The notes under the pieces: generated by a model
Seen by the model: the letters and a program-made list of their open reading frames with translations, nothing else
Told to the model about the DNA's origin: nothing
Databases searched by the model: none
Source of the DNA: Agarophyton chilense
Lineage: Eukaryota; Rhodophyta; Florideophyceae; Gracilariales; Gracilariaceae
Direction: 5' to 3'
DNA: 64,000 nt
Assembly (NCBI GenBank): GCA_030374765.1
Contig: JARGXX010000088.1
Coordinates: forward strand, 496,001-560,000
Made by a program: the position numbers and the translations under genes
Part shown: piece by piece, positions 18,242 through 61,949 of the stretch
Layout: every line of letters begins with the position of its first letter
Numbering within the stretch: the first letter of the stretch is position 1

Positions 18242-19639
18242 ATGAGTTTCATCGCCGAGAGTGATATTCCCACTATTTACAATGTGTCGTACTACAACAA
18301 GATTCCCCAGCGAGAGCTGAACGACTTCGTTGTCACTCGTGGTGACGACAAAGTCTCCATCTGCGTCCTTGATGACCCCTCTGCCAAGCAGAAAGGTGAT
18401 ATCATCGCTCGAGGAACTTTGACGGCCAACAACGGCGGCAAGACAATCAAAGTCGTTTCTGCTCCGTTGAAAGAATGGTGCATCGAGTATTCTCAGAACC
18501 CATCTCTTTGGATTCGCACAAATGATGTCTGGTATCGTCTTCTGAAACCGGCCAAGGAGTATGCTGCCATCCACGAGACTGCCAGACGCCGATTTGAGCT
18601 CTGCTCGAGAATTTTCATCCTGGGAACTACTATGAGTCCAAGTGAATGCAACTACAAGCTGTTTGTGCAGCTGCTCAATGGGACATACGGCAAAATGAAG
18701 GCCTACACCGAGAAGGAGTTGCTAATGGAGAAAGACTTCATTCTGTCTCAGATCAAGAACCTTGGTAACGACTCTCTCTCAAGTATTCCTTTCGTGAAGG
18801 AGTTGCGTGAAAAGAAAACTACGAATGGGAAGAAGAACACTTCCAGCTCCAAGAAAAAGGATTCGTCATCCAGCAGTGGAAGCATTTCCGTGTCTGTTAA
18901 TGGAAACGGTGAGGCCCGGCCATGGGTGCCATCTGGGAAGCTCGACAAAGAAGGAAACATCAGATTGACAAAGAGGCTTGATAAGATCATGCAACAAATC
19001 AGCAAGCACAAATTTGCATACCCATTCCGTGAGCCTGTTGACCCTATTAGGGAACAATGTCCGGACTATCTGGAAAGGATAAAGAGACCGATGGACTACG
19101 GCACCATCAGAAAAAACTTGAGTAAAGGAATGTACAAAAATCTTGAAGACGTTGCCAAAGATATGCGGCAGGTTAAATTCAACTGCTGCCAGTATAATGG
19201 AGAAGATCACCAATTTTCACAATGGGCTATTGAGTTATGCAACAAATTCGAGGCTCAGGCTGCAAGCGCTGAGGAGGCAGAACTATCAACTATGAACAAG
19301 AGACCCGGAAAAAAGAGAAAGGCATCCGATGCATTACCTCCGACTGGTAAGACGAAGAAGAACGCAAAAGGTGCAAAGAAGAGCATGAAAAGTAGTCCAG
19401 AACCTTCAGTGAGTGGTTCTCCGTCAAAAGATGACGATTCAACGGAATCAAAGCTATGTGTGAGATCAGAATCGCAAAAATGTGAACGAATGCAAACTGC
19501 TGGTAGCAAGTACTGTTCGGACGAGTGTGGACTCATAGTTGCCCGACAGCGGATAGAAGAGTTAACCAAGGCCGGCTTTTCCGTCGATGATTACATCAAA
19601 CACCATGTAACCAAAGCTCTTGTGCACAGCAGAAGCTAG
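18242..19639 (+). CDS. RFTS-like / bromodomain / Cys-cluster chromatin protein
   Basis: 465 residues, probably nuclear. Residues ~20-125 resemble the replication-foci (RFTS/RFD) domain of DNMT1, shown by LNDFVV near the start and WCIEYS...LWIRTNDVWYRLLKPAKEY near 95-120. A Ser/Lys-rich linker (about 190-225) leads to a bromodomain at about 240-335, with FREPVDP, DYLERIKRPMDYGTI and NCCQYNGEDH, the last holding the acetyl-lysine-binding Asn region. A basic nuclear-signal-like stretch (KRPGKKRKAS) follows, then a Cys-cluster near 405-425 (C..C with SKYCSDECG), like the small zinc finger found in CFP1/SPP1 of Set1 complexes. The domain mix suggests reading acetylated chromatin. No catalytic domain is present. 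Converges on the START gene, 30 bp apart. Confidence 0.75.
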   Translation: MSFIAESDIPTIYNVSYYNKIPQRELNDFVVTRGDDKVSICVLDDPSAKQKGDIIARGTLTANNGGKTIKVVSAPLKEWCIEYSQNPSLWIRTNDVWYRLLKPAKEYAAIHETARRRFELCSRIFILGTTMSPSECNYKLFVQLLNGTYGKMKAYTEKELLMEKDFILSQIKNLGNDSLSSIPFVKELREKKTTNGKKNTSSSKKKDSSSSSGSISVSVNGNGEARPWVPSGKLDKEGNIRLTKRLDKIMQQISKHKFAYPFREPVDPIREQCPDYLERIKRPMDYGTIRKNLSKGMYKNLEDVAKDMRQVKFNCCQYNGEDHQFSQWAIELCNKFEAQAASAEEAELSTMNKRPGKKRKASDALPPTGKTKKNAKGAKKSMKSSPEPSVSGSPSKDDDSTESKLCVRSESQKCERMQTAGSKYCSDECGLIVARQRIEELTKAGFSVDDYIKHHVTKALVHSRS

Positions 19640-32227: not shown

Positions 32228-32835
32228 TGTAGTATTTGACACCTTCGGATAGCCGATGCATCCTTTTTTGGCCTATGTACGATGATACTCATATAAGGCT
32301 GTCACGGCATGGATTGAGTTACGAGTGGCATCCCGAATAGTTTGTATGTTTCACGTGCGAGTTGGCTTGCAACGGCGCATGTACTGGATGGCCACGCAGA
32401 AGGTGAGTTTACCATTCTTCGACGGAAGCCCATTAGAGCCGAATACCATATACTCTAGAAGGGCTAGCTGGCTCACCAAGCTTTACACCTAGATATTATT
32501 TTGTGGCCCTCAGCTCTGTGCACAGTACATATAATATCGAGGTGAGCGCCAACTCCAAAGTGAATGAGACAACGACCGGTTCACATCTGACTTGTTCCTT
32601 GTTCAGGATTCCTTAACTCGTGTTCCGGACAAGCTACAACAAGTAGTTCCCCGTTCAACAACAACCGTAGTCTACCAACCACCCTCATCAGCGAATGGGG
32701 CTTTAAAACGCCCATCTTCTAGCTCGCTAGTGCTGTAGCTCTATCACCCCCCTTTCCCCTTTGCCGAAAGCACTCCTATTGGCAGTCTGAACTCTGCCGC
32801 ACGAGTCTCCTCTCTCCGTTAGAGCGGATACTACA
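32228..32835 (+). repeat. Solo LTR, same family as element 2
   Basis: 608 bp starting TGTAGTATT and ending GATACTACA. It is a diverged relative of the 666/667-bp LTRs of element 2: shared stretches include GGCTTGCAACGGCGCATGTA, GAGGTGAGCGCC, AGGATTCCTTAAC and CTCTCCGTTAGAGCGGATAC. Flanks CGATT (32223-32227) and GGATT (32836-32840) are a target-site duplication with one mismatch. No primer site or internal region follows, so it is the product of LTR-LTR recombination. It sits inside the transposase pseudogene. Confidence 0.85.
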
Positions 32836-33164: not shown

Positions 33165-33958
33165 TGTAGTGCAACGCCAAGGGCGGCGGAAACACACGAA
33201 GATGTCCGAGTCTTCCTCCAAGGAGGGTAGCACGGCGACGGAGCCTCTCCGGAGTGAACACGACTAAGTCGGGGTTTAAGGCCGAGGTTCCCCGGCACGC
33301 CAAGCGGGGAGAGTGCGGGATGCTAGAAGGGAGCAGACCAGGTATGAGCTGTATTCCACGGGAGTGGGCAAGTGATAAAGGGGGGAACACCCAGTGGGGG
33401 CGATCGGGGGCATGGGCCACGAGAGCCAAAAGAAATATGTAGCAAACCCAATACTGGGACGAGAACACGGCAGTGGTATGAAAGATATACACGCTAACAG
33501 CGGTGAGTCTCCTGTTGACGCAGGGTGGATAAGTCTACCGTTAGTAACGCGGCTTCACCTCCGTAGAGTGTGGAAGACTCGCGAAAGCGGAAAAAGACTT
33601 AGAGCCAAGAACCCTGGTTGGGGAGGTTTACTGAGTGTCAGGGCGAGATCGCCCTGGCACTATATAGTGTAGAATACTGTAAAGAGCTCCCTAACCTAGT
33701 GTAATAAAGCTAAATAAATAGACAAATATCCAGCTATGCTGTGGCAACCTGTCCTGGGCCACCCGTGATACACGTGGGTAAGTCACACCCGAATCGGGGC
33801 CACGGCGCACGGCCGCCGGTGCACTTCGCGTACAACGCGTATACACCTGGCTACGCCAGCCCGCTAGTAGCGGTATTACTCATAGATCTCACAAGTATCG
33901 CCCGAGGCGGAAAAACAACCAAGTCCTGGAAAACGGCCCTCACGAGGGTTGCACTTCA
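33165..33958 (-). repeat. Element 1 3' LTR
   Basis: 794 bp; on the plus strand it begins TGTAGTGCAACG and ends GTTGCACTTCA. It contains a near-perfect hairpin at 33635-33660 followed at once by the palindrome CACTATATAGTG (33658-33669). It lies only 35 bp from the start of the antisense frame. Confidence 0.93.
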
Positions 33959-33970
33959 TATCCCCCTCCT
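33959..33970 (-). promoter_or_regulatory. Element 1 polypurine tract
   Basis: On the minus strand this reads AGGAGGGGGATA, ending exactly at the 3' LTR. It is the expected primer site for plus-strand DNA synthesis in gypsy elements. Confidence 0.75.
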
Positions 33971-33993: not shown

Positions 33994-35931
33994 ATGGTGG
34001 GCGACGCGCCGAGACGAATGCATAAGAGTGCAACCAGCTCGCTGGGATCCACTTCATCCGATGCCAACAAACGCAGTGCGGCAAAACTCCAGTCTCCTGG
34101 CAACAACCGTTCTCAACGTTCCATCTCAACCGAATCCGCATCCTTGCGTGCCAGTCCTCCAATTCCTCGGCATCGTCTTTCGCTTCGCCGGTCTCCTCTT
34201 CCGGTCATCCGGCCTCTTCGCTCACCGATGAGCAACCAAAACAATCAACCCAACCGTCTCCCTGCGGGGTACTTCTCCGGCTTCCGGTCCGCTCCGCTTC
34301 CGCAAAGCGCGTCATCGGCTGCGCCGCAGATTCCTATCGCGAACGCAGCTGCTGCTCCGTACGGAATGTTCCCCCCGAGAGGGTGGCCGCCATACGACAT
34401 GCTTGTCAGGCGCCATCCTGGGCATCATGCGTCCGTTCTCCGGCTTGCGCCGTGGTTCCACCCGATTGCGGGGTTAAACGAAGCGCTCATAGCGATGTAC
34501 ACCGATGGAAACGGGATGCTTACGGGCGATATTCCGGCCGTGGCGACAACTTCGTTGGATTGGCGACGCCCCGTAGCGGTTCCGGTCCACGCTGTGGCGC
34601 GCCGGGGTAGTGAAACCTCGGCTTCCGCTCATGCGGCCTTCGTCCTTCTTGGCCATCAACGGCTTCGCCGGGCTCCTTTCGAATATCCCATCCCCGATGG
34701 TCTCGGCATCGACATTCGGCTTTACCGCACTCAAGGTGAGATTGGTTACGTCGACCGCCTGGCGGATTTGGAAACACTCTCGTGGAGGGGCATCCCGATA
34801 GCACGGCAAGAGGCCATGTGCTGGACGCGACCGATTATCCGGGCAGAATTCCGCTACATGCGTCGACTTGCGCGGGCCAACTTCCTCGCCCTGATCCGCT
34901 TCGAGCGTCGAGCACGATCCCGATTCGGGTATTTGGTCCCGTATCAGAACGTGGAGATCGAACGCCTTCGTGTGGCCGACCGACGGGCTCGCTATGTCCT
35001 CATTCCACCGTGGTGGTCGAACCTCGAGGCCTGCCGGGGCTGTTACATCGAGCTGCCACCAGTCATCACGTATTACGGTTCGTACCTCATCGAGGATCCC
35101 GAGTCCGGACTGTGGTCCGTGGTGATTACCGAATGGGCAGTCCGCGCGGCGGTGTTCATCCTCTGGGAGGTGTATGACCAGTACAGACTGTGGTTCCTCC
35201 CGTTCCGGTTGAGGTCCGCGATTCGCAACCTGGACCTGAGCATCCCACTTGGTGGAGTAACCAACGCCGAAGAAGTGGCGGGTCTTCTTGATTACATCGA
35301 CCAGTTGGACTGTACCACCGTTCCGATTGAACAAAGCGGGCGCACCGTGGGTAGCCGGGGTCAGGACCTGTCACCAGGAAGGCGTACTCCCTCGGGAGGT
35401 GATTTCGTATACTTTGACCCTTGGGAAGGGCACGAAATCTCCGAGGAGGAAGCTAACGAACTCCGGTTCGCACCACGCCATATCCCCGAGGGGCATCCGA
35501 TCGGTTTCGTGGACGCGGATGAATATTACCACGTCTACGACGGCGACGATCCAATGGTGGACAACGAACCCGACGACGGGGAAGCGTACGCCGAGGCGGA
35601 GGTCGAGGGATCCGAAGCGGGAGGTCCCTATAACGCGGGGACGCCAGCCACGCCTTACGTGGATTTGGATAACCCCGCGGGGGCTGGGTCGGAGTAGGCA
35701 GTAGCTGGACCAACTCCGGTTCCACCGGTGAATCTCCCAAGTGGTGGGGTGTCCGCCCCAGGCGATGCGAACTCCGCTCCGGCAGGTCAAGCGGCCGTGA
35801 TCTCCCAGTTCCTGCGACAGGTGGGGCTGGGGACCAACGCAGCGAGTGGCGATGTTGCCGCGATGCGCGAGGCCTTGATCACCCGCCTCCAGGGAGGTAA
35901 CCAACCCGGGGGCGGTGAGCCGAACCCGTGA
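33994..35931 (+). CDS. Antisense ORF of element 1 (unknown protein, one stop)
   Basis: Frame of 645 codons on the strand opposite to gag-pol, interrupted once by TAG at 35695-35697. It starts at ATG 33994, 36 nt from the LTR; ATG 34228 is an alternative. The N-terminal ~80 residues are Ser/Arg-rich, a Pro/Ala-rich stretch follows, then a well-composed domain (APWFHPIAGLNEALIAMY; RAEFRYMRR; RSRFGYLVPYQNVEIERLR; VVITEWAVRAAVFILWEVYD; GDFVYFDPWEGHEISEEE), an acidic region and a C-terminal helix (QFLRQVGLG). It is homologous from end to end to the antisense frame of element 2. No signal peptide, zinc finger, envelope feature or known family is recognised. It overlaps no sense gene, so its coding character is not a by-product of pol. 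Confidence 0.7.
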
Positions 35932-36110: not shown

Positions 36111-37577
36111 TTATCCCACCTGTTCTTTAACAACCGATGCCGGGATTCCCGTCCGCGTTCTGCGGTGATATGACACCACCTTCGAACGTGGGAGATGTTC
36201 CATCGGCTCATCCGAATCCCATTCGGGCCCTAAACTGTACCAACGGACGAGGTATTGAATACAACCATCCGGATGGTATGAGTGCTCCACTATGTGGTCG
36301 ACCACGAACTCCTTCTCGTAGACTTCCCGCCCTTGCGGTGTACGCGTCACCGGACCAAACCGGTGTACGTCCGCAGGTGCGTGTGGGCTACTGTGCCCTT
36401 CCCCCGAGGGGTCCATGGGTCGGCGTTGCCTTTCCATGCCCTGGGTAGGGGAACGAACCGGGTTCCGGGTTGCCTTGGCCGCTTGGCGGGTTGCTTCCGC
36501 CAAGGCGTCATGACGAAGAGCGTCGGTTCGACGGCTTCGGCCGGAGGCCTTCCCGTGGGGCAATTCTCCCGATTTTTGGGTCGAAATGCTTTCCAAGAGT
36601 TCTCGTGCAGAGGCCACCCTTCGGGGGAACGCGGACTCATCCCAAGGCTGGGTTTCGCGGTCGCGTTCCGCGAGTCGTCGGGGTGAAATCCGTCGCAACG
36701 GTGCTGGACTTGACGCGGGAGGCGGTTTCATCACGGGGCGTCGTGCCTTGCCGGGTGAGCCGCCTTGGGCGTTGATTGGCGTATCTCCCGAGCCGGGTGT
36801 CGTCTGGTCACGTGACACGTCCGGCTGATGGCTGGGAGTACTCCGCGCCGTGCTGCGTTCCGCCTCCTCACGTGAGGGCGTGTGCAACGGCGCTGCCGGT
36901 ATGTCTGCTCGCTTGGGCGACAAAGTACCGCGACGGGCGTGCAGCACCGGGTCAACCGTGCCTTCCTCACCAACGGGCGGCGAAGTGCGTGGCGAGGAAC
37001 CCCTGCAAGGAGCGAGTTCGTCCTCAATTATCCCTTCGGAGGGTTCAACTTCACTCGGCGACGAGGTGCTTCCGTCCTTGACGGGCACATTCTCCGGGGT
37101 GACCGGTGCGCCTTCGACAACGCTGTCGGGGTCAACCGAGACACTCGGAGTGCGTCCGCCACTGCGCGCGGGTTCTAAACCAGCATCAAGCGTGCTGGGT
37201 GTGAATCTCCCGTCTGCTACGGTGTGCCTGCCCGGCTTAGCCGGTGTGTCCTGCCGTACAGTACAAGGGACCACTTCCGATCGATTCGGCCCAGAGGGGC
37301 CTGGGAGGGCGTGCTCTAAGTTTTCCAGCGTAGCTGGTGTCGACGAACCGTGACCCACGGGCTGCGGGTCAACGCTCGACGGCATAGCCGGTCCAGTATC
37401 GCGAGGGCGAACAGCATCCTGCGACAATTTCGGTTTCGCTTCGGCGAGAGGGTTTCCAGTACGTGGTGCGTCCTGTCGAGTAGAGTCCCCGTGGGGAGTG
37501 CGATCAGACGCAGATGCGGTGGCGCTTCCCATAGAGGGTTCAGCAACGGCTGTAGCGCGCAAATGCGGAGATGGCAC
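36111..37577 (-). CDS. Element 1 pol C-terminus with chromodomain
   Basis: Last part of pol, in a different frame from 37316-38404, so a frameshift lies between about 37.55 and 37.75 kb. Most of it is a Pro/Ser/Thr-rich, poorly conserved linker. The last ~70 residues form a chromodomain: EFVVDHIVEHSYHPDG, then YLVRWYSLGPEWDSDEP and HLPRSKVVSYHRR. Integrase-linked chromodomains steer chromoviruses to heterochromatin. The matching part of element 2 is at 59060-59761. Confidence 0.8.
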   Translation of the reverse strand: MPSPHLRATAVAEPSMGSATASASDRTPHGDSTRQDAPRTGNPLAEAKPKLSQDAVRPRDTGPAMPSSVDPQPVGHGSSTPATLENLEHALPGPSGPNRSEVVPCTVRQDTPAKPGRHTVADGRFTPSTLDAGLEPARSGGRTPSVSVDPDSVVEGAPVTPENVPVKDGSTSSPSEVEPSEGIIEDELAPCRGSSPRTSPPVGEEGTVDPVLHARRGTLSPKRADIPAAPLHTPSREEAERSTARSTPSHQPDVSRDQTTPGSGDTPINAQGGSPGKARRPVMKPPPASSPAPLRRISPRRLAERDRETQPWDESAFPRRVASARELLESISTQKSGELPHGKASGRSRRTDALRHDALAEATRQAAKATRNPVRSPTQGMERQRRPMDPSGEGHSSPHAPADVHRFGPVTRTPQGREVYEKEFVVDHIVEHSYHPDGCIQYLVRWYSLGPEWDSDEPMEHLPRSKVVSYHRRTRTGIPASVVKEQVG

Positions 37578-40500
37578 GTTGGTAGACGGGACGTCCGGAT
37601 CACCGTTGTTCTTGCTGGTGTGTCCAGGAGTCCGTGCACCACGGTTGTCATGACGCGAAGAAGCGATTCCGTCTCTCGACGAGAGTTATGAGCCTCCTCC
37701 CCCTCCTGAGACGGAGCGGCATGGGGAGTGGTTGAAACGTTCAACGGGCGGGGGTAGACACCGCGCCGTGGCGTGAGAGAAGAGAGGCCATTCTGGCCTT
37801 GGTCCGATAAGATCGGCAAGTCAGAGAGTCCCCGGATAGGGTGTGGTAACGCAGAAGGTCTAGAAACCACGGCAGTGGGCTGAGCCACTGTTGTGTGCCG
37901 AGCACCATCATCCTCAGAGAGGGATTGTTGACCCATTTCGGTTACTTCCAACGTCGGTGGCGGGGCGAGTACAACGCGGTCGCGGGAGATCCGCTCATGA
38001 GCGTCGACAATTTCCACCACGATGGTGTCGTCTTTCACCGAAATGACCTGGTAAGGACCGTCCGCGACGGAAGAAAGCTTGTGCTTCTTTTCCTTTTCAG
38101 GGTTCCAGTACTCCTTACGGACGAAGACGAAGTCACCGGCTTTGATTGGCGGGGCCTTACCGCGTACGCGAGAGTCGAAATCACGCTTGTAAGCGGCTTG
38201 AGCACGAGCCATCGAGCTTCGGGCGACCGGGATCAGCTTCGTAAGCCACTCTTTCCACCTGTGGCGATAATCCTTCACGGAAGGGAACGCATCCAGCGTG
38301 GGCTGGGGTTCTAACGCGACAGGGGGCGGAGGGCGGGACAAGACCAGTTCGAATGGAGTCAAGCCCGTAGTACGGTGTACCTGCGTATTGTACGCGAACG
38401 TCAAGGCGTCGGTATATAAATACCATGTCTTTGGGTGGTCGGCCCCGTAAGAACGGAGAGACGCTAATAGCGTTCAGTTAAACCGCTCCACTTGCCCATT
38501 ACACTGGGGGTGATAGGTCGTTGTGAACAGGTTCTTGATGTCAAGAATCCTGCACACGTCCTCGAAGAATCGCGATGCAAACTGTTTTCCGTTATCGGAT
38601 AGAAGATTAACCGGCGGGCCGTAGACGAATACCCAATGGGGTACAAATGCTTGTGCAACTGTGAAAGCGGATATCTTCCGTAGAGGTACGGTCCGAACCA
38701 GGTTTGAGAAACGATCCGTGATAACGAGTAAAAACTTATGTCCACGTCGTGTGGTGAGGAGCTTACCGAGGATGTCAATGGCGACAAACTCGAGAGGAGC
38801 CTGTGCCTGGATTAGTTTCAACTTCGTTGAGTACTTGCGAAGTTTCACCCGATTCTTAGCACATTCGGTACAAAACCGCACCGTTCCGTAGCAATCCACC
38901 GCCATGGCGGGCCAGTATAAATTCATTCGCAAAGTGAGGTAGAGCTTCCGTCCACCGGCGTGTCCACCAAGTTTGGCATAGTGCGATAGACGCAAAACTC
39001 TAGACTGTAGAGTATGCGGTACCACGACTTGTGGGGATGACTGAACCGTCCTGACGAAGTATCCAAGATCGTTCACCTCGAAAGGGAGTTGTGCACCGCC
39101 ATTAAGCCAGGCGCGAATCTTCGTACAGAAGGGGTCAACCTGCTGTTCTCTGACCATCTCCTCCGGGGGTATTGGCACTAAATTACCCGGCGGGGGTTTC
39201 TCTGAATCGTCCGAGACGAGCAATGTGTCAATATCATCATCCGATTCCGGGCTTTCGTTCCATTTATCGTGTAACCAATCCGGGTCCCCCGGTGTTCCAT
39301 CGTCTACGACGAAGCAAGGTATATCCTCGTCATCGACGGTTAGAGCTTCCCCATTCGTGGGTAAACGCGAGAGCCCGTCCGCTTGCGCGTTCTGAGTGCC
39401 CTTCTTGTAGATCACTTCAAAGTCATATTCCGCGAGGCGGAGTCTCCAACGCATTAAGCGGCCTGACGGCTCCGAGATGGTCATGAGCCATCGTAGGGAC
39501 GACTGATCCGTGTAAACGGTAAAGTGCACACCCATGAGGTAGGGGCGGAGTGTAGAGAGGGCCCACACAACTGCGAGGCACTCCTTCTCCGACACGGAGT
39601 AGTTCCGCTCGTGGACGTTGAGCGAGCGTGACCAGTACCCAATGGGTTTGCGTTCTCCTTCGGGAGTAGTTTGAAAGAGCGCACAGCCTACCTGGTAGTC
39701 GCTAGAGTCCGTGTCCACGGAAAACGGTAGTCCGGGTTTCGGTAACGATAGAATCGGTGCTGATGTGACAGCCTCCCTAAGGGAGTTAAAAGCATCCGTC
39801 TGGGCGGACGTAAAGGGGTCCAGTTTAAGTGGTTGACCTTTCCGCAGAAGCGCGGTCAAGGGGGCCGCGATGTCAGCGAAGTTAGGGATAAACCGTCGGT
39901 AGACGTTGACCAATCCTAGAAAGGAGCGCAGTTCCGTCTGGGTAGCGGGTTCTTTCGGCTTGCGAAGAGACCTCACTTGAGCTTCCTCGATCATTACACG
40001 TCCCGGACGGATAATGTGCCCGAGATACTTCACAGTATCGGAAAAGAACTCACATTTCCTCAGTTTGAGGGTTATTCCAGCATCACGTAGCGTGGTCATT
40101 ATGTCCCTGACATGGGTGAGATGGTCATCCAGATTGTCTGAGAAGACAATGATATCGTCCAAATAGACGAGGCAAGTACGCCACTTAAAGCGGGCCAACA
40201 GAATGTCGATAGCACGCTGAAAGGTAGCGGGAGCATTGGTTAGACCAAAAGGCATCCGTTTGAAACGGTAGAGTCCCGAGTGACAGAAAAACGCAGTCTT
40301 ATCTTCGTCCTCCTCCCTAACGGGAACCTGCCAATATTCCCAATTGGCGTCCAAAGCCGTGAACACGGTAGCAGTGCCGAGAGAGTCGATGTACTCATCC
40401 ATTCGTGGGATCGGATACACGTCCTTGACGGTAACATCATTCAAGCGACGGTAGTCGATGCAAAAGCGCCAGGACCCATCGGGTTTTGGAGCCAGTAACA

Positions 40501-41857
40501 CTGGGGATGCCCACGGCAACTGAGCCGGTTCGATCACTCCAGCTCGGAGCATTTTGTCCACATGGAACTGTTCCTCTTCTCGAGCCTTGGGGCCTGCCCT
40601 GTAAGGATGTTGAGCCACCGGTCGGGTGTTCGGCAATAAATCTATCCGGTGTTCCGTTGTATTTATCTCACCAAGAGAGCCATCCCACATTGTGATAAAC
40701 TCCCGTAACATCTCACGCAGACTTTCACAGTGTGACTCCGGTACATGACCGAGGTCGAGTTCCTCGAGTTCTTTCACGGGGTTTACCCGGTCGTAACTCG
40801 TCGGAACGGGCTTCTTTTCTGTTTCGGCAGGTTGCGATTCCGAATCATTCGGTGATTGGACGGCAGCTTCCTCCCCCTCCTTAGAGTGAACGAGACCGAG
40901 GACTTCGGCAGCGGTCAGCCTAGTGGGGACCATCACGGTGGGGTGAGGCATTACCGATCCAATAACTTGGTTTTTCACCAGTGACTGGGGGGTGGAGCCC
41001 AGATTGGCAACGAGCACGGTAAACGGCTTGTCTGGGACAATCTGCGCGACTCCATTCGCCACGGCGAGTTGATATCCATCGTACAGAGATGAGAGAGGCT
41101 GAATGAATCGTAAACCGTGTTGACGGGAAGTGACACGCACCCATACTTGGGACTCTGGCGGGATTCGGACAGACGCAGCCACGTGGAGCTTGGTAGACTC
41201 CCGAGAAGCGGGTGGAGGTTCCTGCGCGGCAGGGAGCGGTACGTGCTTCTTGGAGGCACGCCGCAGCGGACGACGGACAATCGGGAGCGACAAGCCGTCT
41301 TCCATCTCAACACGCTTTAAGCGGGGCCTTATGTCGTCAACTAATCTGTCACAGAAGTCAAATCCCAAGATGATGGGGGCAGCCAATTTCCGGCATACAA
41401 TAAAGTCGAGTTTCACCACGAAGGAGCCCAAGCTAACGACGAGAGCGACGGTTCCAACCGTTGACAACGGGTTGTTGTTCGCGTCCGCGACGTCGGGCGC
41501 CACGCCAAGGCGGATCTGAGACCGCAAGGGCGGGGGCAGCAGCGACTCCACGATGAAATTCGGACCAGCACCTGTGTCCAAAACAGTAAGGACTCGAACC
41601 ATAAACTGGGTAGAAAGGCCAAGGTCGGCATACACCTTGTAATTGCGCTTGGCCATTACCAAGACTCTATCCGGGAACCGGCGGTTAAGAACACGTGTCC
41701 ACGGTCGACGTAGAACACCAAAGTGTTCACAGTCCACGTCTGAGACGGCCTGTTTCCTCGTGAGGATTGTGACCGGGGAGCGAGGCGGAGACGCCTCGGG
41801 CGTCGTCAACCTCACTGTTGGGGACGCCTTTCCCGAAGGGGAGACTCCCGAAATCAA
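37316..41857 (-). pseudogene. Element 1 pol: protease, RT, RNase H, integrase (one stop, one shift)
   Basis: One frame from the gag overlap to 37316, broken only by TGA at 38474-38476, where element 2 has Arg just after VERFN. In order: aspartic protease with LDTGAGPNF; reverse transcriptase with LDANWEYWQ (the usual SGY is changed to WEY), RMPFGLTNAPATFQR and the intact catalytic YLDDIIVFS; RNase H with SVDTDSSDYQVGCALFQ and VYTDQSSLRWL; integrase zinc finger (H..GGHAGG..FCTEC); integrase core with AIDILGKL, LSDNGKQF and CNGQVERFN; and the GPF/Y-like tail region (YQVISVKDDTIVVEI). It lies in the -1 frame relative to gag. The RT and RNase H parts are unbroken over 1,127 codons. Confidence 0.9.
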
Positions 41858-43983
41858 TTTTCCCGAGTCCCATCCGCCTGGGGTGGGGCCTCAGAATCCT
41901 GAACCACTAGCAATGGGGCGCAAGGGGCGGGGTTTGAAGGAACGGTGCGGTGGTCGGGAGCCTGCTCGGCAGGGTAAAGCAACGCATTGCGCGGTTTCGC
42001 CTCCGGAATACTCCGTGGAAAATCGATCTTCGCTCGAAGATACGACGTCATCGGAACAATCCGCTTTTCAACTGGGTTCAACGCCTCATAATTACCGATT
42101 ACTCGGGCTACTTCCCTCATGGTGAGGATGCAGTCCAGTGAAATGTGACCGTGTTTGTAGCATATGTGGCATATGAGTCCCGGGCGTGAGGGCTGCAAAC
42201 CGGAGCGAGCATCCGTGAACTTCACCGCTTGGCGGATATCCTTCCATCCAGGGCGACTCTGTCGGAGCGCACCGTTTGAATACGAGATGCAAGGTCCGTG
42301 AACACAGGGAGAGTCTGCGTACAGCAGGGGTCCATCCTGGGCCGTGTCATATGAGTCGTCCGTCGTAGACGGTAGTTCGGTTGTCGGGACCGAATTGATA
42401 TCGCTTCGGGCGAAGTGTACGTTGTCGTACTCCTGTTGGGGGCGCTCAATCGCAACCAGCGATAGAGATGGCGACTTCGTTTCCATCACCAACGCCTTGG
42501 CGGTTCGCGACCTGTGTCCGGGGGCACGAGCTCTTAAAGCGTCACCTTCCGCTTGCGCGTGTTGGACCAACTCCAGATACGTGGTCTTCCTTCGGTCTTC
42601 CCGGTAACGGGCCACTAGTGTTCGGATAGCGGGGTCCAGTCCATCGATGAACATGGTGCAGCGCTCTCCAGCGGAGTGTACGTTCCCACTACGGTGGAAA
42701 GCCTTGTTCAGGCGCACCGAGAATTCGGTTTCCGTTTCTCCAGACTTCTGGCGCGTATCGCGAAGAGCGAGAATGGCCGACTGAATCGCGTGATTAGTGG
42801 CGTAGGACCTCAAGAGGTATTGTACTGCTTCTGGTCAGCAGGGTACCCCTCCTTTGGAGGCTCTAGACGAAACTATTACAGAGTTGTATTGATCCTCGGC
42901 GAGGCCTTTCATAAAGTACGGGAGTGCAATAAACGCCTGTCCTTCGGTCATACCGAGAATATCCGCTTCGGCGACGAACCTCGCAAGGAAATTCAACACC
43001 AAAATGGGGTCTTCTCCAGAAAAGCTCTGGTTTCTGAGGGACAGTTGCATAAGCTTTATGCAATCCTTCACTCTACCCGTGCCACGGGGCGTGCGATCCA
43101 AAGAGGAGTTCTTTAGCCGATAGTATCGGTAAGAGACGAACTTCTTGTACAAGGGGTTGGTGCATTTCTACTACTTCAACCCGGAGTGTTTTCTTCCCTT
43201 CTCGCGGGCGCAGATCACACCTTGGGTGGCAGACGACCGTTTAGAACGGGATGAACGCCTGCAATGGCCATCGTCAGCAGACGAATCTGACGAGTCCGAC
43301 CCATTTGAATGGTGGGAGCCACGCGACGACCGTGAGGAGTTCGACGAGTCCGAGTCATCGCTGTCACGCTTTCCACGCCGACGGCGGGTATCGTCCCTTT
43401 TCCTCTCGTGTTTTGCTTGGTGCGACACAGCAACTGGCTTCTCCGGGACGTCTTTCATCAAGATGGTTTGCTCTAACGTCTGGAGACGGGCGCTAACACG
43501 ATTGAATCGGGTATTGACACCTTCCACGTAAGCGGCGGGACCACCAAAACATTCCAACAGGGTGTTGACGTCCGCCCGCAACAAGCGGAGGTCGTCAACC
43601 ACTTCCTTCATAGAAGAGCCATCACACCTGGAACGCAGGGCTTCGAACTCTTCCACGAAGGCATTGTGCGCTTCCCGCATTACGCGGATCTGCTGCCTCA
43701 CACTTGAGTTGGTGTCGATGTGGAACTCGTTTCTCTGGGCCTTTTCGTCGGCAGGAGCCGGGTCATCCACGGCAGGGGCCGGTCCAGCACCAGAATTGGG
43801 TCCATTCTTCGACGCCTTAGGAGGTAGCTTGTTGTTCTTGGAGGAGTTCGACCCCTTACTCTTGCCTTTCGGAGCGGCTTGAGGTAACGGCGGGGGAACC
43901 CTTCCAGGGTCCGCAGGCACCACGTCATTGACGGAACGGCTCCGCGTGATCGCGGGTTCTGCTTCCGACGGTAGTCGTGACAT
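41854..43983 (-). pseudogene. Element 1 gag, three in-frame stops
   Basis: One reading frame of about 710 codons from ATG 43983 to TGA 41854, broken by adjacent TAG TAG (43168-43173) and TGA (42835-42837, where element 2 has Trp). The N-terminal half has Pro/Lys-rich and coiled-coil stretches and an Arg/Ser/Asp-rich segment. The central part is the gag capsid-like region (YRYYRLK, LNFLARFVAEADILGM, then YLLRSYATNHAIQSAILAL and FIDGLDPAIRTLVARY). A CCHC zinc knuckle, CHICYKHGHISLDC, lies near the C-terminus. All parts match element 2 gag in order. Confidence 0.85.
41857..41863 (-). other. Candidate -1 frameshift site, element 1 gag-pol
   Basis: On the minus strand the sequence is GGAAAAT followed by TGA, the gag stop. 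In the gag frame it reads GAA AAT TGA; in the pol (-1) frame, GGA AAA TTG. The same GGAAAAY motif occurs at the equivalent place in elements 2 and 3. Confidence 0.55.
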
Positions 43984-44122
43984 GGTTGTAGCGTTGACCA
44001 CTAAGAATAGGACAACAAAAGCTTCCACCAAGTGGGTCCAAACCAAGAAATTGGAAAGCAGATCTCGACCAGAAAAGACAGCACAGCCATGTGAAAAACA
44101 ACCAAACCAGGTCCCCCTAGCC

Positions 44123-44140
44123 TTCTAAGTCGGGAGACCA
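44123..44140 (-). other. Element 1 primer-binding site
   Basis: On the minus strand TGGTCTCCCGACTTAGAA starts 3 nt after the 5' LTR. It would pair with a tRNA 3' end reading ...GGGAGACCA. Elements 2 and 3 have near-identical sites; I could not name the tRNA. Confidence 0.75.
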
Positions 44141-44143
44141 GTT

Positions 44144-44937
44144 TCTAGTGCAACGCCAAGGGCGGCGGAAATACAAGAAGATGTCCGACTCTTCCTCCAA
44201 GGAGGGTAGCACGGCGACGGAGCCTCTCCGGAGTGAACACGACTAAGTCATGGTGTAAGGCTGAGGTTCACCGGCACGCCAAGCGGGGAGAGTGCGGGAT
44301 GCTAGAAGGGAGCAGACCAGGTATGAGCTGTATTCCACGGGAGTGGGCAAGTGATAAAGGGGGGAACACCCAGTGGGGGCGATCGGGGGCATGGGCCACG
44401 AGAGCCAAAAAAAATATGTAGCAAACCCAATACTGGGGCGAGAACACGGCAGTGGTATGAAAGATATACACGCTAACAGCAGTGAATCTCCTGTTGACGC
44501 AGGGTGGATAAGTCTACCGTTAGTAACGCGGCCTCACCTCCGTAGAGTGTGGAAGACTCGCGAAAGCGGAAAAAGACTTAGAGCCAAGAACCCTGGTTGG
44601 GGAGGTTTACTGAGTGTCAGGGCGAGATCGCCCTGGCACAATATAGTGTAGAATACTGTAAAGAGCTCCCTAACCTAGTGTAATAAAGCTAAATAAATAG
44701 ACAAATATCCAGCTATGCTGTGGCAACCTGTCCTGGGCCACCCGTGATACACGTGGGTAAGTCACACCCGAATCGGGGCCACGGCGCACGGCCGCCGGTG
44801 CACTTCGCGTACAACGCGTATACACCTGGCTACGCCAGCCCGCTAGTAGCGGTATTACTCATAGATCTCACAAGTATCGCCCGAGGCGGAAAATCAACCA
44901 AGTCCTGGAAAACGGCCCTCACGAGGGTTGCACTTCA
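44144..44937 (-). repeat. Element 1 5' LTR
   Basis: 794 bp, near-identical to 33165-33958. Its plus-strand start reads TCTAG instead of TGTAG, one substitution at the terminal dinucleotide. The hairpin is conserved (44614-44639), but the adjacent palindrome has one change (CACAATATAGTG). Confidence 0.93.
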
Positions 44938-45905: not shown

Positions 45906-47337
45906 ATGCGCCGTAACCCCTACGCCCCTCTGCTTCTTCTCCCTCTTCCGCCTCAACGCGCCCCCCGCATTCCACACAATTCTTCGCTGCTGCTACTCCA
46001 GTTGCTTCTTCTTTGCCCGCATTCCCCCTGCCCTACAGCCCCACCAACGCATGTTCTCTTACCGGCTCTCCCTCACAAAACGCCGGCCCCCACTAGCCAT
46101 AACCCATTTGCCTCCACGCACGAAGCGCCACAACTCCCCTCCTCAACTCCATACCCCTCTAGTCCCCTCAAACCGCCCCTCCCATAACGTCCTTCTCGCA
46201 GACGAGAACTCCTATCACCAACAGCAACATGCCTTCTCCCTCCAGACCGTAGACGCACACCACATTGCTAACAGTCCCCTTTGCCCCGTCTCATCCTCCA
46301 CCCCCCTCCTTCAACCCCCTTTATCCCCATCTCCTAACAACCACAAGTAGAGCAGCTCGTCCTCTACATCTTTTTCATCGCCTTCAACCTCGGCCTCCGA
46401 ATATTAGACGAGCTCATCGCTATCCTCAACGACCCAAACTTCTCTAAGTCAAACTTCCTGCAAACCATCTCCTCCGCCCGCCAATGCATCGACCTCCAGG
46501 AAAACCTCTTCAAACACCGCATCGCTTCCTTCGGCTTCGTCCCACACTCCATCACCGACACTCTCAATCGCTTCTCCGAGACAGTCTACCTCAAAAACCC
46601 AATCGAATTCCTCAAGCATATGATCTCCCTCGCACACCACCACAACACCTTCTTCCACCCCATCGCTCAAAAGTCACAATCCGTTTCTCCTGCCTTCTCT
46701 CACCCCATGGCCGCCTCCCTCGGGGCACAACGCCTTCCCCGCACTCAAATCCGCCATCATGCAGTCCAAGAACGACAAGATCATAAGGAACTGCCCCCAC
46801 ACACCCCGATTAGACTCCTTCATCTGCTTCATACAGCTCTACTCGGAGAAGTCCTCTGCCTCCCAGAAAGCCTCCTCCGTCACCTACCACCCCCTCCATA
46901 TCACCCTTCTCAACTTCCTGGACTGCTTCAGACGAAATGCATCTCTAAAACCACACCCTCGTTAGTTACCTCCCAATCTCCTTCCAATCCACCGCATCTG
47001 CCCCCGAAGCAGACGTTATCTCCCCCTCGTGCGCAGATATCCATCGCGAAACAACAATGGAAATCACACAAGCCACCATGAAAACAATCCTCTAGCCCGT
47101 CGCTCTTCTGGTCTCCTCGGCTTCCCCTTACGCGACGCTCACAAATTCCTCTGCCAAGGTCACCCGGTCCTCATAAACTACTTCGCAGACATCTCCGAGG
47201 GCGAGAACATCCTCGCTATCTCCGACGAAAGACGCCCCAAGAGCCCCTACCACCGAGGTCTCTTCACTCGCTCCCTCCTCAACGAACCCTCTCGCAACGC
47301 TCCCTCCCACACCCCCAACACACCTCAAACACTGTAA
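45906..47337 (+). pseudogene. Frameshifted coding remnant with extreme C-ending codon use, family unknown
   Basis: No single long frame, but successive frames read as protein over 1.4 kb, all on the plus strand and strongly biased to codons ending in C (CTC, ATC, TTC, AAC). Recognisable stretches are LRILDELIAILNDPNFSKSN and IASFGFVPHSITDTLNRFSE in 46350-46740, then DSFICFIQLYSEKSS (46810-46860), CADIHRETTMEITQATMK (47030-47090) and HKFLCQGHPVLINYFADISE (47130-47200). At least four frameshifts separate them. I do not recognise the protein. Codon use is unlike the housekeeping genes and the retroelements, so a foreign or once highly expressed source is possible. Continuity as one gene is inference. 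Confidence 0.4.
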
Positions 47338-47856
47338 AGCCACACGCTTCTCTCCTCCATGAATCCGAACAGGCGCTCCTCTTCCTAAAACCAAGAGTCG
47401 CCCACATTCTGAATGAGCAACGATAACGGTTGAGTTCTGTAAGCCACCGGGGTCTGAGATATCATCCAGACGTCACGTGGACTGGCCAATCTCAGCTGAA
47501 CTGATTTAGATAATTAATTTATTTTAATTATTGTCATAGATTAGCATTACAGTGCCAGGGAGATCCCAGCGCCTCGCCAGTACTATTTACTTGGCTCGAG
47601 TGACACTTCTCCCTTAGAGTATGGTAGGCACCGTTAGGATACTAATTTACACCTTTTGGTACATTAGTTCCACCAATTCGTTTTCAAGCCATCGTTTTCG
47701 TAGCTCCGATCTGTGTGACTACGCACTAAATGCCATTCTATTGCACCAAGTACTCTGGGAGTACCGCCGTCAAGGATACAACCCTTAGGACCCGCTCTAC
47801 CACGCTACCCCAGGTTGAGACCAGTACGCTGACCCACCAATCATTGCGTTAAATTT
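47338..47856 (+). repeat. Presumed 5' LTR region of element 3 (left end not fixed)
   Basis: About 500 bp directly upstream of the element 3 primer site. No gene is seen. By position it should contain the 5' LTR, but the partner LTR lies beyond the window and the terminal CA is not clear, so the boundaries are not defined. Confidence 0.35.
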
Positions 47857-47874
47857 TGGTCTCCCGATTTAGAA
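47857..47874 (+). other. Element 3 primer-binding site
   Basis: TGGTCTCCCGATTTAGAA, one base different from the element 1 site and two from the element 2 site. It lies about 100 nt upstream of the gag start. Confidence 0.7.
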
Positions 47875-47977
47875 TCCTCTAAGAATAATTGAATGGACCA
47901 CTTCAAAGAAGAATTATGCGGATTGTAACCCTCGGTTTAATCACCAACGGATCAGAAGTTCAGAAGCTACCGCCATT

Positions 47978-50113
47978 ATGGATGCAGGGAACACACCCAA
48001 CCGACCAGTCCATAGGACTACTATGGCAGGACGAGTTGCCACTGCAACGCCGACGATGTCGCCTGAACTACAAGCTGATACTGTTAGCGACCGCAGAAGC
48101 ACGAGAAGCGAGCCGCAACGAGTACTGACTCCTCTGGACGACCCTGAAAGGATTCGCCGAGAACCCACGGTAGCAGCGCGTTTATGAGAACGCCTCACCA
48201 AGGCCACCTATAGGCCAAAAACACCCCAAAGAGAACCCCGTGAGACCGAAGTAATTAGAGAGAACACTCCCGCAGGGCTTTCCGACCTTCTCTGGACACG
48301 TCTCCGTGAGCTCTGCTCAGCCCATTTGGAATCCATTGTGGACATGCGACTCGCCACGTCCATCACTGACAATACGGATTATCTCGTTACGCGAATCGTC
48401 CCCAAGGTCATGGATTCTGAGCTATTCTTAGACTCCCTCCTTCAGGTCGTTCAAGGAGCAGTCACCAGCCAGTCAGGCAACGCGGTCCCTAAGACCACTC
48501 CACAAGTGAACCATCCGGCATCCATATTGAAACCCCCTACCGAACCCCCAGGAGTGGCGGTATTGCCCGCCCCTCGCCAGGAACATCATCAGGAAATTCC
48601 AATAGAAGGACAATCTAGGAGCAGAAGAGAGTCTCCGCGTCTAGAAGAGAGACAGATTGCCCTTCTCAAGGTACTATATTAGGTACAGTGACTTCAGGGC
48701 TCCATCGGATCTGATACAGAGATCGATTCTTTAGGTCTCTTTTTTGCTGGAAAGAAAAAAAGTAATCGCAGGAGATAGAAGAACAGAAGGAGTGAAAGAA
48801 GAGAGCACTCGAACACGAGTGATTCCTAATCGTCTTCCACCAATACGACCTACTCGGAAGTGGATGAGGCTGCCGTTCGAGGCCTCAAACCACTGAAAAC
48901 AACCAACGAACTTTTCCTTACCGTTCTAGATTACAGAAACTACCGGCTGGCCGACAGGTTTCCGAAATATTCTGGTTCGGTGGCTCGAAGAGTCGCCAAA
49001 TGGGCCAAACGGATGCAACTAACCACTAGGGACAAGTTTTCGGGTTCCGATCCGATTGCTGTCATTAGGTTTCTCTGTTTGTTCCGTGCGGCCTGTGATC
49101 AGAACGGTGTCCACGACGGCGCCGCTCTGTACCTTTTCCAATTCTTCCGCACAGGGCAGACGCCTGACCGAGTGGCTTCGAAGATATCTGGCAAAACTGA
49201 CCTCCTGGATGCTCAAGACCGTGAGCTCCTCAGTTCATACCCTAAGGTTTTTCATTACATCTTGGAAACTTACGTCACGGATGACGTTATAATGGATGCC
49301 CAACAGGAATTAATATCCCTTAGGCAGAGCTCCAGTAAGACCAAATCAGCTTTCGCAGACGAGCTAGGGAAGAAGGCTTACCGATTTGGAAACGTGTCCT
49401 CTGGAGGACGGCTTAAATGTCACTTCATCACGGGACTACTCCCTGACATACGGACACATGTCAGCCATTACCACACGGAAAACCGACGATACTCCTTCCC
49501 AAGCCTCGTTTCTTATGCCGAAGGATATGGCAAAACCAACCGGACTTCCAGGTGCAATGCTGATATAACCAGAGGACACGAAACTCAATTTCGTAAACCC
49601 AACCAAGCCCATTTGGTTGGCTCCACAGAATCGGACATGCATTCATCACTCCATTTTGCTGACTCGGGAGATGTCCTCGTGGTTAATATCAACGCTCCTA
49701 CGTTCGGGACCCCATCATATACCTTCCAGGGAACTGCAGCGACCACTGGACCACCCACAACCAAATACTCTCCCTTTCCGCCAAGCAAGGACGTTTTTGT
49801 TCGCTCCTCAAGGGCTGGCGTCCTCAGCCTTTCAATGGTCCATCCTTGTGACTGCACGAGGTATCTGCCTCAGAATGCACGCAAAACCCTCCTATCCTTA
49901 ACGGAAGAGAATTACAGGGTGCAGCGATCCGAAGGAATGTTGAACAGGGCACAGCAACCAGCCACAGGGAGCCCTCGAAGCTCTCGCTATGCAACGCCTC
50001 CAGATATTTCGATCAAAGCCCCACAGGTCCACGCGATTGTAGACCCTACAGCCGACCCAGAAGAGGAATCTTATTCTCAGGGAGAAACGGAAACCCCATC
50101 GGAAAACTCTTAG
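47978..50113 (+). pseudogene. Element 3 gag, several in-frame stops
   Basis: A single frame of about 712 codons from ATG 47978 to TAG 50111-50113, with TGA at 48185, a TAG at 48680 and probably more before 48860. The region 48860-50113 is unbroken for 417 codons and contains the capsid-like part (DPIAVIRFLCLFRAACDQNG; FHYILETYVTDDVIMDAQQE; FITGLLPDIRTHVSHYH), similar in layout to element 1 and 2 gag. No full CCHC zinc knuckle is visible; CDCTRYL is a possible remnant. Confidence 0.75.
50101..50107 (+). other. Candidate -1 frameshift site, element 3 gag-pol
   Basis: GGAAAAC, followed by TCT TAG in the gag frame. The pol frame (-1) is open from GGA AAA CTC onward into the protease. Same motif as elements 1 and 2, here one codon before the stop. 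Confidence 0.55.
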
Positions 50114-51906: not shown

Positions 51907-52573
51907 TGTGTTATTCTACTATGTCGGGGAATCCAATATGTTGGTTTTTCGCGAAGTCGCGGTTGGAACTCATAAGTAAGTGATGTCATTAAACTTGTGA
52001 TATGAAACGGCACACCGCGTGGGATGCCCAGAGGCAGAATGTCTTAGTGGGACACGTGGTATCACGAGTGGAGTGGCTTGCAACGGCGCATGTAGTGGCA
52101 ATCCACGTTGCTGGTTATACTACCCTTTGTAGCTAGACGTCCATTAGGGACCATACCCATACAGTGGTTTGGCTAAGTGGCTGACCACTGGGTATTATTT
52201 ATATATTTATTTGGGCACTCACCGTGGCACACAGTATATAGTGTACCAGAGGTGAGCGCCGACTCCAAGTAAAGGAGACAACATGGGCATCATGACTATT
52301 CTGTTCCTCGCTTAGGATTCCTTAACCAGAGATTCGGACGAGCTATAATGGATAGTCAGCCCCCAACCACTTCACGAGACGTCTCGTACCTACGTTCCAT
52401 CAACTTCTTACAGTTGCACTGTTCACTCTCGCTGGCGAGTAGTGGCCTTACACCCCACTTCCAGCTCGCTGGTGTTGTAGCTCTACCACCCCTTTTACTT
52501 CGCCGCAAGCGACTCATCGGCAGTCCGAACGCTGTCGCAGGTGTCTGATCTCTCCGTTAGAGCGGATACTACA
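51907..52573 (+). repeat. Element 2 5' LTR
   Basis: 667 bp, from TGTGTTATTC to GATACTACA. It contains a TATA-like A/T stretch (TATTTATATATTTATTTG near 52194) and GTATATAGTGTA near 52232. It differs from the 3' LTR by a few per cent by eye. Confidence 0.92.
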
Positions 52574-52575
52574 AG

Positions 52576-52593
52576 TGGTCTCCCAACTTAGAA
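52576..52593 (+). other. Element 2 primer-binding site
   Basis: TGGTCTCCCAACTTAGAA, 2 nt after the 5' LTR; the same tRNA primer family as elements 1 and 3. Confidence 0.75.
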
Positions 52594-52788
52594 CCACTGT
52601 GGTCAGCTGCACTGAACAATTCGTTCCTGGAACGTGGAATGGATATCGATACTTGGAAGAAGTGGAATCACTACAGTTATTGTTTATCAAATCACCTCCG
52701 GCAATTGCGGAATTCATCGTGGTTGAACACGTGGTCGAGAAGTCGAAGACACCATTTGGTTCGCAGCTGGACTCAGGTTTGGTCTAGG

Positions 52789-59761: not shown

Positions 59762-60090
59762 GTATGGGCTACAAAGGTAGTAAAAACTCGAAAGGAGAGA
59801 AGAAAACAAGAAATCATGAACAGGAAACGTGAAGACACGCAAGAAAGGGACATTTATTGATTATCACCTAGGACAAACTCGAGAAGCGAGAGGAAGGATT
59901 GAAGAACTGGAGAAGCGAGAAGAAGAATTGAAGAACTGGAGAAGCGAGAAGAAGAAGTTAAGAACTCGAGAAGCGAGAAGAGATGAAGACTAGAAGATAA
60001 GAAGGGAACGTGAAGACACGAAGTCACCCGAGTTTATTGGTATCAAGATACCACCGCAAGGGTGTTGAATAGGAATCTTTTCTAGGATCA
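59762..60090. other. Spacer between pol and antisense frame, element 2
   Basis: 329 bp of purine-rich DNA between the convergent pol and antisense frames, including a minisatellite (separate entry) and two copies of ACGTGAAGACACG at about 59826 and 60008. No gene. Confidence 0.6.
59876..59982 (+). repeat. 29-bp tandem repeat, about 3.7 copies
   Basis: Units start at 59876, 59905, 59934 and 59963, each beginning AACTSGAGAAGCGAGA. Copies differ at few positions. It lies in the 3' region of element 2. Confidence 0.85.
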
Positions 60091-61782
60091 TCAAAGAGAC
60101 GTGCGAGCACGAAGGTTCGCAAGAAGCTGTGCGCAATCACCCTCAACTTGGTCCACGGGAAAGCCCGAATCTAAGAGGAACTGTCTCAGCGGATCCAGGC
60201 CTGGATCTTCGACTGGCACTGCACTCGGTTGTTGGGTAAATCCATGACAGTACTCTTGAGCAACTTCCGTCGCTGCGGATTGATCGACGGAAGTCGTTAC
60301 GTCTCCTAGCTCTGGCTCGTCCTCGTAACCGAGTTCAGCCTCAGCTCCCGGCGCTTCTTCATACGGTTCCTCTCCGTTCTTGGATGGGATACCATCGTAC
60401 AAGTATCCAGTAAGCTGGTTCGGTGGCATGTCACGCGGGTTCTCCCGAAGAAAGCGAGCCTGCCCGGAGGTGATCAACTGGCGCGTCCAGGGATCGTACC
60501 AAACGAAATCTCCAGCACTTGCTGTTCGCCCAGGAGAATGGTCGTAGTGTCTTGCACGGGTTCCGCGAGTGGATTGATCAGCTGGCACTCCAGACCAATC
60601 GACGCTGTCGATCAAATCCACAAGATGGAAGAAGTCGGCATGGTTCGCACGGGATCCCAGGACAAGGAAAAGATCGAGTTCTCTCGCATACTTTCGCGCA
60701 GTGGGCGACATGTACCAACCCCTAAAGGTATCATAAGCATCCCACAGGAGGAAGACGGCCATCTTTGCGATAAACTCGGTATAAACCACCGTCCAATATC
60801 CCGAGAACGGGTCGTTAACCAACGCGGACCCGATGTAGGAGATCGCCGGTGAGAGCTCCACAAGGCAACCACAAGGACTCTCGATCGCCGCCTAATGCTC
60901 CGGAATACCGATGTAGCGCCCGAAGCGCGCGTTCTGCCGGATGCAGTCAATCTCGATCATTTGATATGGCACCGAATAGCCCAAACGTGATCGAGTACGA
61001 CGTTCCCAACGGGAATAATCCCAATAGGGAATGTCACGCTTTCGAAGGAATCGGAACTCCGCACGGAGAAGAGGTTGCTGAAAGCAGAGAGCTGCATCAC
61101 GCACACCGCGCACACCGCGCACACCGCGCCAACCGCTAAAAACGACTTCGACGAGTGTCTCGATATACGAGTAACCTTCAACGTCGGTACGGGCTTTTCA
61201 GGTATGTAGTTCCCATTCCTGCGGGAGGAGAACCGTACTGATGGATCGGTGAAGACGCTGGTAAATCAGCTTGGTGAACCGCGTACGGGCTTCGGATATG
61301 GTTTCCGTTGAATATCGCGCAATCGCGTTGTCTGGCAAAGCAATATGGCTCGCCCAGTCGTCGCTATAAATCGCGTGTTCCGGAATACCGTCAGGGAAGT
61401 ACCCACCGTGTACATACTGTTGTATCAACGCGTCATCGCGGATAGCAACTGGGTCAAACCAGGGCGCTTGCGTGAAAAGTTCAACGTTGTCGAGAGGATC
61501 TCGTCCATAGAAATCCGCAGGGTGCAGGTAGCTCCGCTGAGCACGACGAGAAGGAGCTCGAATCACACCTGCAGAGGCGACATAAGCCGCGTTCGGCATC
61601 GGAGCCACGGTTGGATGAGCTAACGGTACCGACCGGAATCCGGTGTACGGTGTGGGGAACGAACGGTATGGACCGAGTTGAGCAGTACGCTGCGACGCAG
61701 AACCAGCAATGTTGGACGGAGCCCCAGAAGGCACATCCTCAGAGGAGGGCTGAAACGGGTTGGGCCCGGCGTTCGGATCCAT
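60091..61782 (-). pseudogene. Antisense ORF of element 2 (unknown protein, two stops)
   Basis: 564 codons in one frame from ATG 61782 to the stop at 60091, interrupted only by TGA at 61198-61200 and TAG at 60892-60894; at the latter element 1 has Trp. Homology to the element 1 antisense protein runs throughout: TGFRSVPLAH, QAPWFDPVAIRDDALIQQY, RAEFRFLRKR, RSRLGYSVPYQMIEID, VVYTEFIAKMAVFLLWDAYD, GDFVWYDPWTRQLITSGQA, and the C-terminal QFLLDSGF. The N-terminus is Pro/Ser/Ala-rich. No known domain is recognised. It sits between pol and the 3' LTR on the strand opposite to gag-pol, as in element 1. The frame is open upstream into the LTR, to about 62016. Confidence 0.7.
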
Positions 61783-61937
61783 CTCGAGAGATCGAGCTGA
61801 AGAGCGGTGAGGAACAGAATGCTGTTGACAACTGTAAGAGTTGGTCGTGCGGCGAGGAACTTGTGATGACGATGAGTCCCGAAAAACCGGTCCGACTGCG
61901 TATAAACGCTTCTTGGGTCCCCCATGGTTCGCGCTTA

Positions 61938-61949
61938 ACGAGGGGGGTA
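61938..61949 (+). promoter_or_regulatory. Element 2 polypurine tract
   Basis: CGAGGGGGGTA-type purine tract ending exactly at the 3' LTR, equivalent to the element 1 tract. Confidence 0.75.

Follow-up and report, generated by a model that had tools for sequence, protein, structure and literature searches.

The window analyzed here is a stretch of 64,000 nt from the red alga Agarophyton chilense and belongs to an assembly of 80 Mb in 135 contigs. Of 15 phycobiliprotein matches in this assembly, 14 fall on a single plastid-like contig of 228 kb, in keeping with a red alga, and the best PDB match of its phycocyanin alpha chain is 2bv8, an entry from Gracilaria chilensis. It contains two Ty3/gypsy LTR retrotransposons (Table 1): element 1 carries gag-pol on the (−) strand, with an LTR pair that is 98.0% identical and the target duplication TCTAT, and element 2 carries gag-pol on the (+) strand, with an LTR pair that is 94.6% identical and the target duplication CTTTT. 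Both elements proved to carry what the original prediction had described, namely one long frame per element on the strand opposite to gag-pol, located between pol and the 3′ LTR. Element 1 is adjoined by a partial third LTR (32363–32835) that shares 69–82% identity with those of element 2. Beside the two 5′ LTRs (44120–44143 and 52574–52600) lie similar primer-binding-like stretches, TGGTCTCCC(G/A)ACTTAGAA, and the two elements may therefore use the same tRNA. GC skew is strong in the interval 46001–48000 (−0.43) and departs widely from the values elsewhere in the window; a tandem repeat was looked for there, and none was found.

Table 1. Features of the two retrotransposons and their antisense frames (positions within the window)
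Feature	Position	Strand	Remark
Element 1, 3′ LTR	33165–33958		paired with 44144–44937
Element 1, polypurine tract (sense), GGAGGGGGATA	33959–33969	−	between antisense ATG and 3′ LTR; read from sequence
Element 1, antisense ORF	33994–35697	+	567 aa in the window copy; premature stop
Family 1 stop position	35929–35931	+	645-aa frame; used by 9/20 other copies
Element 1, AATAAA	36015–36020	+	83 nt past the family stop
Element 1, 3′ end of pol, chromodomain-like tail	36111–37577	−	converges on the antisense ORF
Element 1, pol (RT, RNase H, integrase core)	38474–41857	−	
Element 1, 5′ LTR	44144–44937		paired with 33165–33958
Element 2, 5′ LTR	51907–52573		paired with 61950–62615
Element 2, antisense ORF, C-terminal piece	60091–60861	−	256 aa
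Element 2, antisense ORF, N-terminal piece	61198–62016	−	272 aa as listed
Element 2, polypurine tract, CGAGGGGGGTA	61939–61949	+	read from sequence
Element 2, 3′ LTR	61950–62615		paired with 51907–52573

Both window copies of the antisense gene are broken. The end of the element 1 frame had been placed at position 35931, which is indeed the stop of its family (family 1), but the window copy itself stops at 35697. Among the 20 other family 1 copies that scored best after the window's own in the genome search, nine have the 645-aa frame up to the family stop (L027 among them lacks the ATG), and the stop lies elsewhere in the remaining 11. The element 1 protein is covered end to end without a stop by 28 of 77 genome matches, the window's own counted. 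In element 2 (family 2), the N-terminal piece shows homology to intact copies from position 61875 in the listed frame, and the family 2 ATG is found at 61925–61923 in a different frame. Specifically, the damage to the element 2 frame consists of a frame change immediately downstream of the family start codon and two in-frame stops; the family 2 protein is whole, as one 608-aa frame, in copy L030.

That both window elements carry the gene was correct as originally predicted, but two was an undercount, as we found it in at least five families of the genome. Four of these comprise at least 524 recognized places (counts that may include some assembly duplicates): at least 84 cores in family 1, at least 148 matches to the C-terminal piece in family 2, at least 142 cores in family 3, and at least 150 cores in family 4. 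Family 5 was seen once. Among the matches listed, an opposite-strand RT lies 3.5–5.3 kb downstream of 75 of the 84 family 1 cores. Viewed from the RT, 109 of the 150 rows used have an opposite-strand recognized core at a distance of 2.5–9 kb, and same-strand pairs number two. RT rows of ≥91% identity pair with a family 1 core in 75 of 79 cases, and among the other 71 rows, family 3 accounts for 17 opposite-strand pairings and family 4 for another 17, again among the matches listed. No recognized core was present for 41 of the 150 RT rows among the matches listed, which is no evidence of absence, and two unpaired RT places that we inspected both carry a diverged antisense gene (family 4 and family 5). 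An earlier idea, that core-less RT rows (54 at first) represent elements lacking the gene, was dropped when family 4 cores paired with 17 of the 54 and another row turned out to be family 5. In family 4 the antisense gene lies beside the end of pol, and 67 of the 150 listed places share an identical 52-residue core, which makes this family look young. In the family 3 copy L037, a family 1 LTR (98% identical; 26–820) has inserted immediately past the antisense ORF.

The antisense frame is almost certainly a conserved protein gene. The predicted alignment of the two proteins from the N to the C terminus was borne out by the intact family 1 and family 2 proteins, which align end to end with 215 of 595 aligned residues identical and a local score of 749 (versus ≤62 in 200 shuffles), and in which the spacing and the acidic tail also agree. 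Over the 595 codons, identity is 36% or 34% depending on the alignment, dS is saturated, dN is 0.76–0.80, and the mismatch at the three codon positions is 0.50, 0.45, and 0.71, respectively. For families 1 and 3, the identity is 53% and dN/dS is 0.21. Homology is thus not confined to near-identical DNA: between the five families, the proteins are 31–54% identical, and the third codon positions vary the most. When one copy of each of the five families was compared, dN/dS ranged from 0.14 to 0.34 in the six of ten pairs with finite dS (dS values near or above 2 being imprecise), and the other four pairs were saturated.

In three pairs compared in all six frames, the antisense frame had zero stops and the lowest pN/pS, and the five other frames had 6–30 stops. 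The minus-1 frame had a pN/pS of 0.58–0.71 but 18–30 stops; its pN/pS is low because it shares its third-position bases with the antisense frame. As far as tested, no sense gene overlaps the antisense frame, as had been claimed: open runs on the sense strand reach 286 aa in the window and 181–271 aa in five copies, with stops inside and no conservation as frames. A frame left open by chance, through composition or constraint on the opposite strand, might be expected from the GC-rich character of the stretch (0.61) and the 286-aa ORF opposite, and yet has virtually no chance of being the explanation, given the stops in the other frames, the lack of conservation of the longest opposite-strand frame (pN/pS of 1.07–1.16), and the between-family homology with third positions changing most. 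Both chance and sense-strand constraint were rejected on the six-frame comparison and the divergence pattern of the five families. The between-family dN/dS values, the third-position changes, and the absence of any other open frame indicate that this is a real protein gene that is under purifying selection across families.

The dN/dS check suggested with the original prediction was favorable between families only. Within families, two copy pairs gave values of 0.73 and 0.77, closer to neutral, and a test of singleton versus shared variants in 21 family 1 copies was not significant (N:S of 33:23 for shared and 312:158 for single variants; p = 0.30). The same test was likewise not significant for the family 1 chromodomain frame (p = 0.79) and was significant for the family 1 RT (p = 0.006). 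Near-neutral values within a family are expected if most copies are dead; they give no support for selection either. Since copies decay after insertion, the singleton/shared test has low power, and selection on a recent master element is unsupported.

Further analysis of the protein revealed a basic N terminus (pI of 10.1–12.0 in four proteins; 6.5 in L029, whose reading starts at a later ATG), a conserved core of ~355 residues that includes the arginine-rich stretch ERRxRSR, and an acidic tail (pI of 4.1–4.5), and this layout of charge is repeated in families 1–3. The motifs RTxGE, RAEFR, ERRxRSR, LVPY, RGC, ELPP, GSxLxxDPxSGxW, and SPGR are conserved in families 1–4 (one copy each), and family 5 deviates from some of them. 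No clear membrane segment was found in five proteins, the highest 19-residue hydropathy being 0.93–1.73. In line with the earlier statement that no known family is recognized, four members (one each from families 1–4) had no Pfam match at E-values up to 1 and no PHROG match; PDB profile searches yielded no relative (best E-values of 0.09 and 1.4), nor did a search of viral and prokaryote contigs. AlphaFold models, for which the alignments came from the window assembly only, were unusable (mean pLDDT of 33.8 and 34.9).

Between families 1 and 2, the antisense gene has a dN approximately threefold that of RT (0.76–0.80 versus 0.27 over 160 RT codons). The identity between elements 1 and 2 is 34–36% for the antisense protein, 33% for the frame at 41857–42813, 43% for the chromodomain region, and 50% for pol, and the first frame of element 1 (43174–44046) has no match in element 2. 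By this measure, the conservation of the antisense protein is similar to that of the frame upstream of pol and lower than that of pol itself. The integrase tail (residues 424–471) matches the chromodomain profile PF00385 at 19.7 bits, a weak match that falls below the Pfam cut-off of 25.1, and the chromodomain-like stretch of element 1 matches that of element 2 (43%) and family 4 (54%). With this weak match in mind, the core of the original prediction stands: chromovirus-like Ty3/gypsy elements of a red alga carry a conserved protein gene in antisense orientation.

Next, the surroundings of the frame were considered as those of a possible transcription unit. The antisense ATG lies 35 nt (element 1) and 24 nt (element 2) from the 3′ LTR, with the polypurine tract in between, which leaves little room outside the LTR for a transcription start; in families 3 and 4, the frame starts ~24 and ~68 nt, respectively, from a similar polypurine tract. 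A TATATA located ~333 nt upstream of the ATG, within the 3′ LTR, is found in 19 of 20 family 1 copies and is a candidate antisense promoter, and the 3′ LTR of element 2 has a TATATA ~358 nt upstream. At the other end, 16 of 20 family 1 copies have an AATAAA 80–84 nt past the stop, a candidate signal for 3′ end formation of an antisense transcript, and element 2 has one 52 nt past its stop. Neither signal was found throughout the families, as no TATATA occurred in the stretches examined of families 3 and 4, and no AATAAA occurred within 968 nt after the family 4 stop. A poly(A) signal was not retained as a feature common to the families, on account of its absence in family 4 and the insertion of a family 1 LTR soon after the family 3 ORF. 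An antisense transcription unit is plausible from these features.

Several other features of these regions were recorded. A 13-bp inverted repeat (33634–33661; 92%, 2-nt gap) lies directly beside the TATATA in the element 1 LTR. Palindromes around the LTR TATA are striking by eye, but the longer dyads are not above shuffles and therefore provide no candidate binding site. The folding z-score of the LTR DNA (−2.94) was given no weight. The interval of element 2 that separates the stop codons of pol and of the antisense frame holds a 29-bp tandem repeat of 3.7 copies (59876–59981); the corresponding site in families 3 and 4 has pyrimidine-rich stretches.

Antisense genes at this position have precedents. 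Passages of PMC7264820 and PMC11963269 describe antisense ORFs between pol and the 3′ LTR in the plant elements Grande, RIRE2, and Retand, which are present in most copies and encode a conserved protein of unknown function. According to the same passages, the Grande antisense protein localizes to the nucleus and its gene has an antisense promoter of its own, and the Retand elements, which are non-chromoviruses, have antisense ORFs mostly with TRP28 (PF04195); about half of the Retand elements are described there as carrying tandem repeats in the interval from pol to the 3′ LTR. The original prediction had noted the plant cases, and the layout is also reported outside plants, in the brtn gene of the Boty element of the fungi Botrytis and Sclerotinia (passages of PMC7264820 and PMC8365987). 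As far as these descriptions go, the gene in A. chilense shares with the plant ORFs its place, its orientation, its presence in most copies (family 1), and a conserved protein, and with Boty brtn its place and antisense orientation. It differs from the Retand ORFs by the lack of a TRP28 match (four members), the chromodomain-like integrase tail, and the red-algal host; of the repeats seen in Retand, the counterpart here would be the 29-bp array of element 2, none being reported in element 1. Retroviral antisense genes are described as having promoters in the 3′ LTR (PMC10186651). The arrangement in A. chilense likewise has an antisense frame converging on sense genes, with a putative start in the LTR. 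In the antisense protein HBZ of HTLV-1 the regulatory domain is a bZIP, whereas no bZIP or other Pfam match was found in the algal protein.

We propose that this is an accessory gene of a red-algal chromovirus-like Ty3/gypsy group, located in antisense orientation between pol and the 3′ LTR, that is inherited with the element and regulates the element's own copies, a reading to which we give not far from an even chance. The transcript would start in the 3′ LTR and run toward pol; the protein may bind nucleic acid, as its charge alone suggests, and would regulate the expression of the element's own copies. The frame itself has been kept by selection on the protein while at least five families diverged. 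Taken separately, a regulatory role of the protein in the element's own expression is possible yet somewhat doubtful.

The protein might instead counter host RNA interference (RNAi), with convergent dsRNA formed over the 2-kb stretch and the protein shielding the element from small-RNA silencing. The assembly contains four Piwi-domain Argonautes, two large Dicer-like ORFs with paired RNase III domains, and an RdRP, and the antisense protein changes faster than RT. A six-frame search of the assembly for C5 DNA methyltransferases (PF00145) returned 0 matches, compared with 10 of 14 control genomes positive, although such a search, made without introns, could miss a split gene. CpG transitions were compared with those at other GC sites (per 1,000) in the ORF (9.2 versus 6.6), the LTR (10.4 versus 7.0), and pol (8.8 versus 7.8); the CpG excess is mild at most, and CpG sites are thus not strongly hypermutable. 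The protein matched no known silencing-suppressor family or fold, and we consider this role unlikely. The same host features, i.e., the RNAi genes, the lack of a detected methyltransferase, and the mild CpG excess, make it the first rival to element regulation and lead us to rate a VANC-like role low. The VANC anti-silencing proteins of Arabidopsis VANDAL transposons are described as acting on DNA methylation via arrayed motifs (passages of PMC5735166); to that extent, both are diverging transposon-coded proteins that could act on their own family, but in A. chilense no C5 methyltransferase was detected, and the two window LTRs have only short two-copy repeats. A host gene in the window (18242–19636, [+] strand) combines a bromodomain with a DNMT1 replication-foci domain (PF12047; E-value of 1.4e-12); the assembly to which it belongs gave no C5 methyltransferase match. 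We regard as rather improbable the more specific scenario in which the lineage makes convergent dsRNA and encodes its own new-class suppressor on the antisense strand, in a host with RNAi and no DNA methylation, the fast divergence reflecting an arms race.

An antisense-strand product with a structural or transport function, whether env-like, for movement, or for nuclear import of the integration complex, would fit the env position, and the basic N terminus and ERRxRSR could serve as import signals. The five proteins, however, lack a clear membrane segment, and minus-strand genes are not expressible from genomic RNA, so that such a function is quite unlikely and the env-position role raised in the original prediction fares poorly; retroviral env, by comparison, is a sense gene whose product is membrane anchored. 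It is also very unlikely that the antisense RNA rather than the protein acts, limiting copy number as dsRNA with the genomic RNA. The convergent arrangement and the RNAi genes would suit such a mechanism, and the same possibility is raised for plants in passages of PMC7264820, but an RNA role has no need of codon conservation along the whole frame with saturated silent sites.

The layout is known; the protein family and its place in red-algal chromovirus-like elements look new. No red-algal antisense or additional ORF was found in the titles or abstract openings of a literature consisting largely of non-subscription papers, and the passages available from an LTR element data set that includes red algae (PMC8282616) do not mention such genes. 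Antisense accessory genes of LTR retrotransposons are, in the passages of PMC7264820 and PMC11963269, without known function, and at least five diverged families in one 80-Mb genome, two of them in the window, make a compact system for that question. One of the usual silencing layers may also be absent from the question in a red alga that has RNAi genes and in which no C5 methyltransferase was detected. Under the suppressor scenario considered above, the protein would found a new class without kinship to the suppressors of plants or viruses. Should it prove to regulate the element or to suppress silencing, this would help to account for the presence of a gene at this spot in plant, fungal, and algal element lineages.
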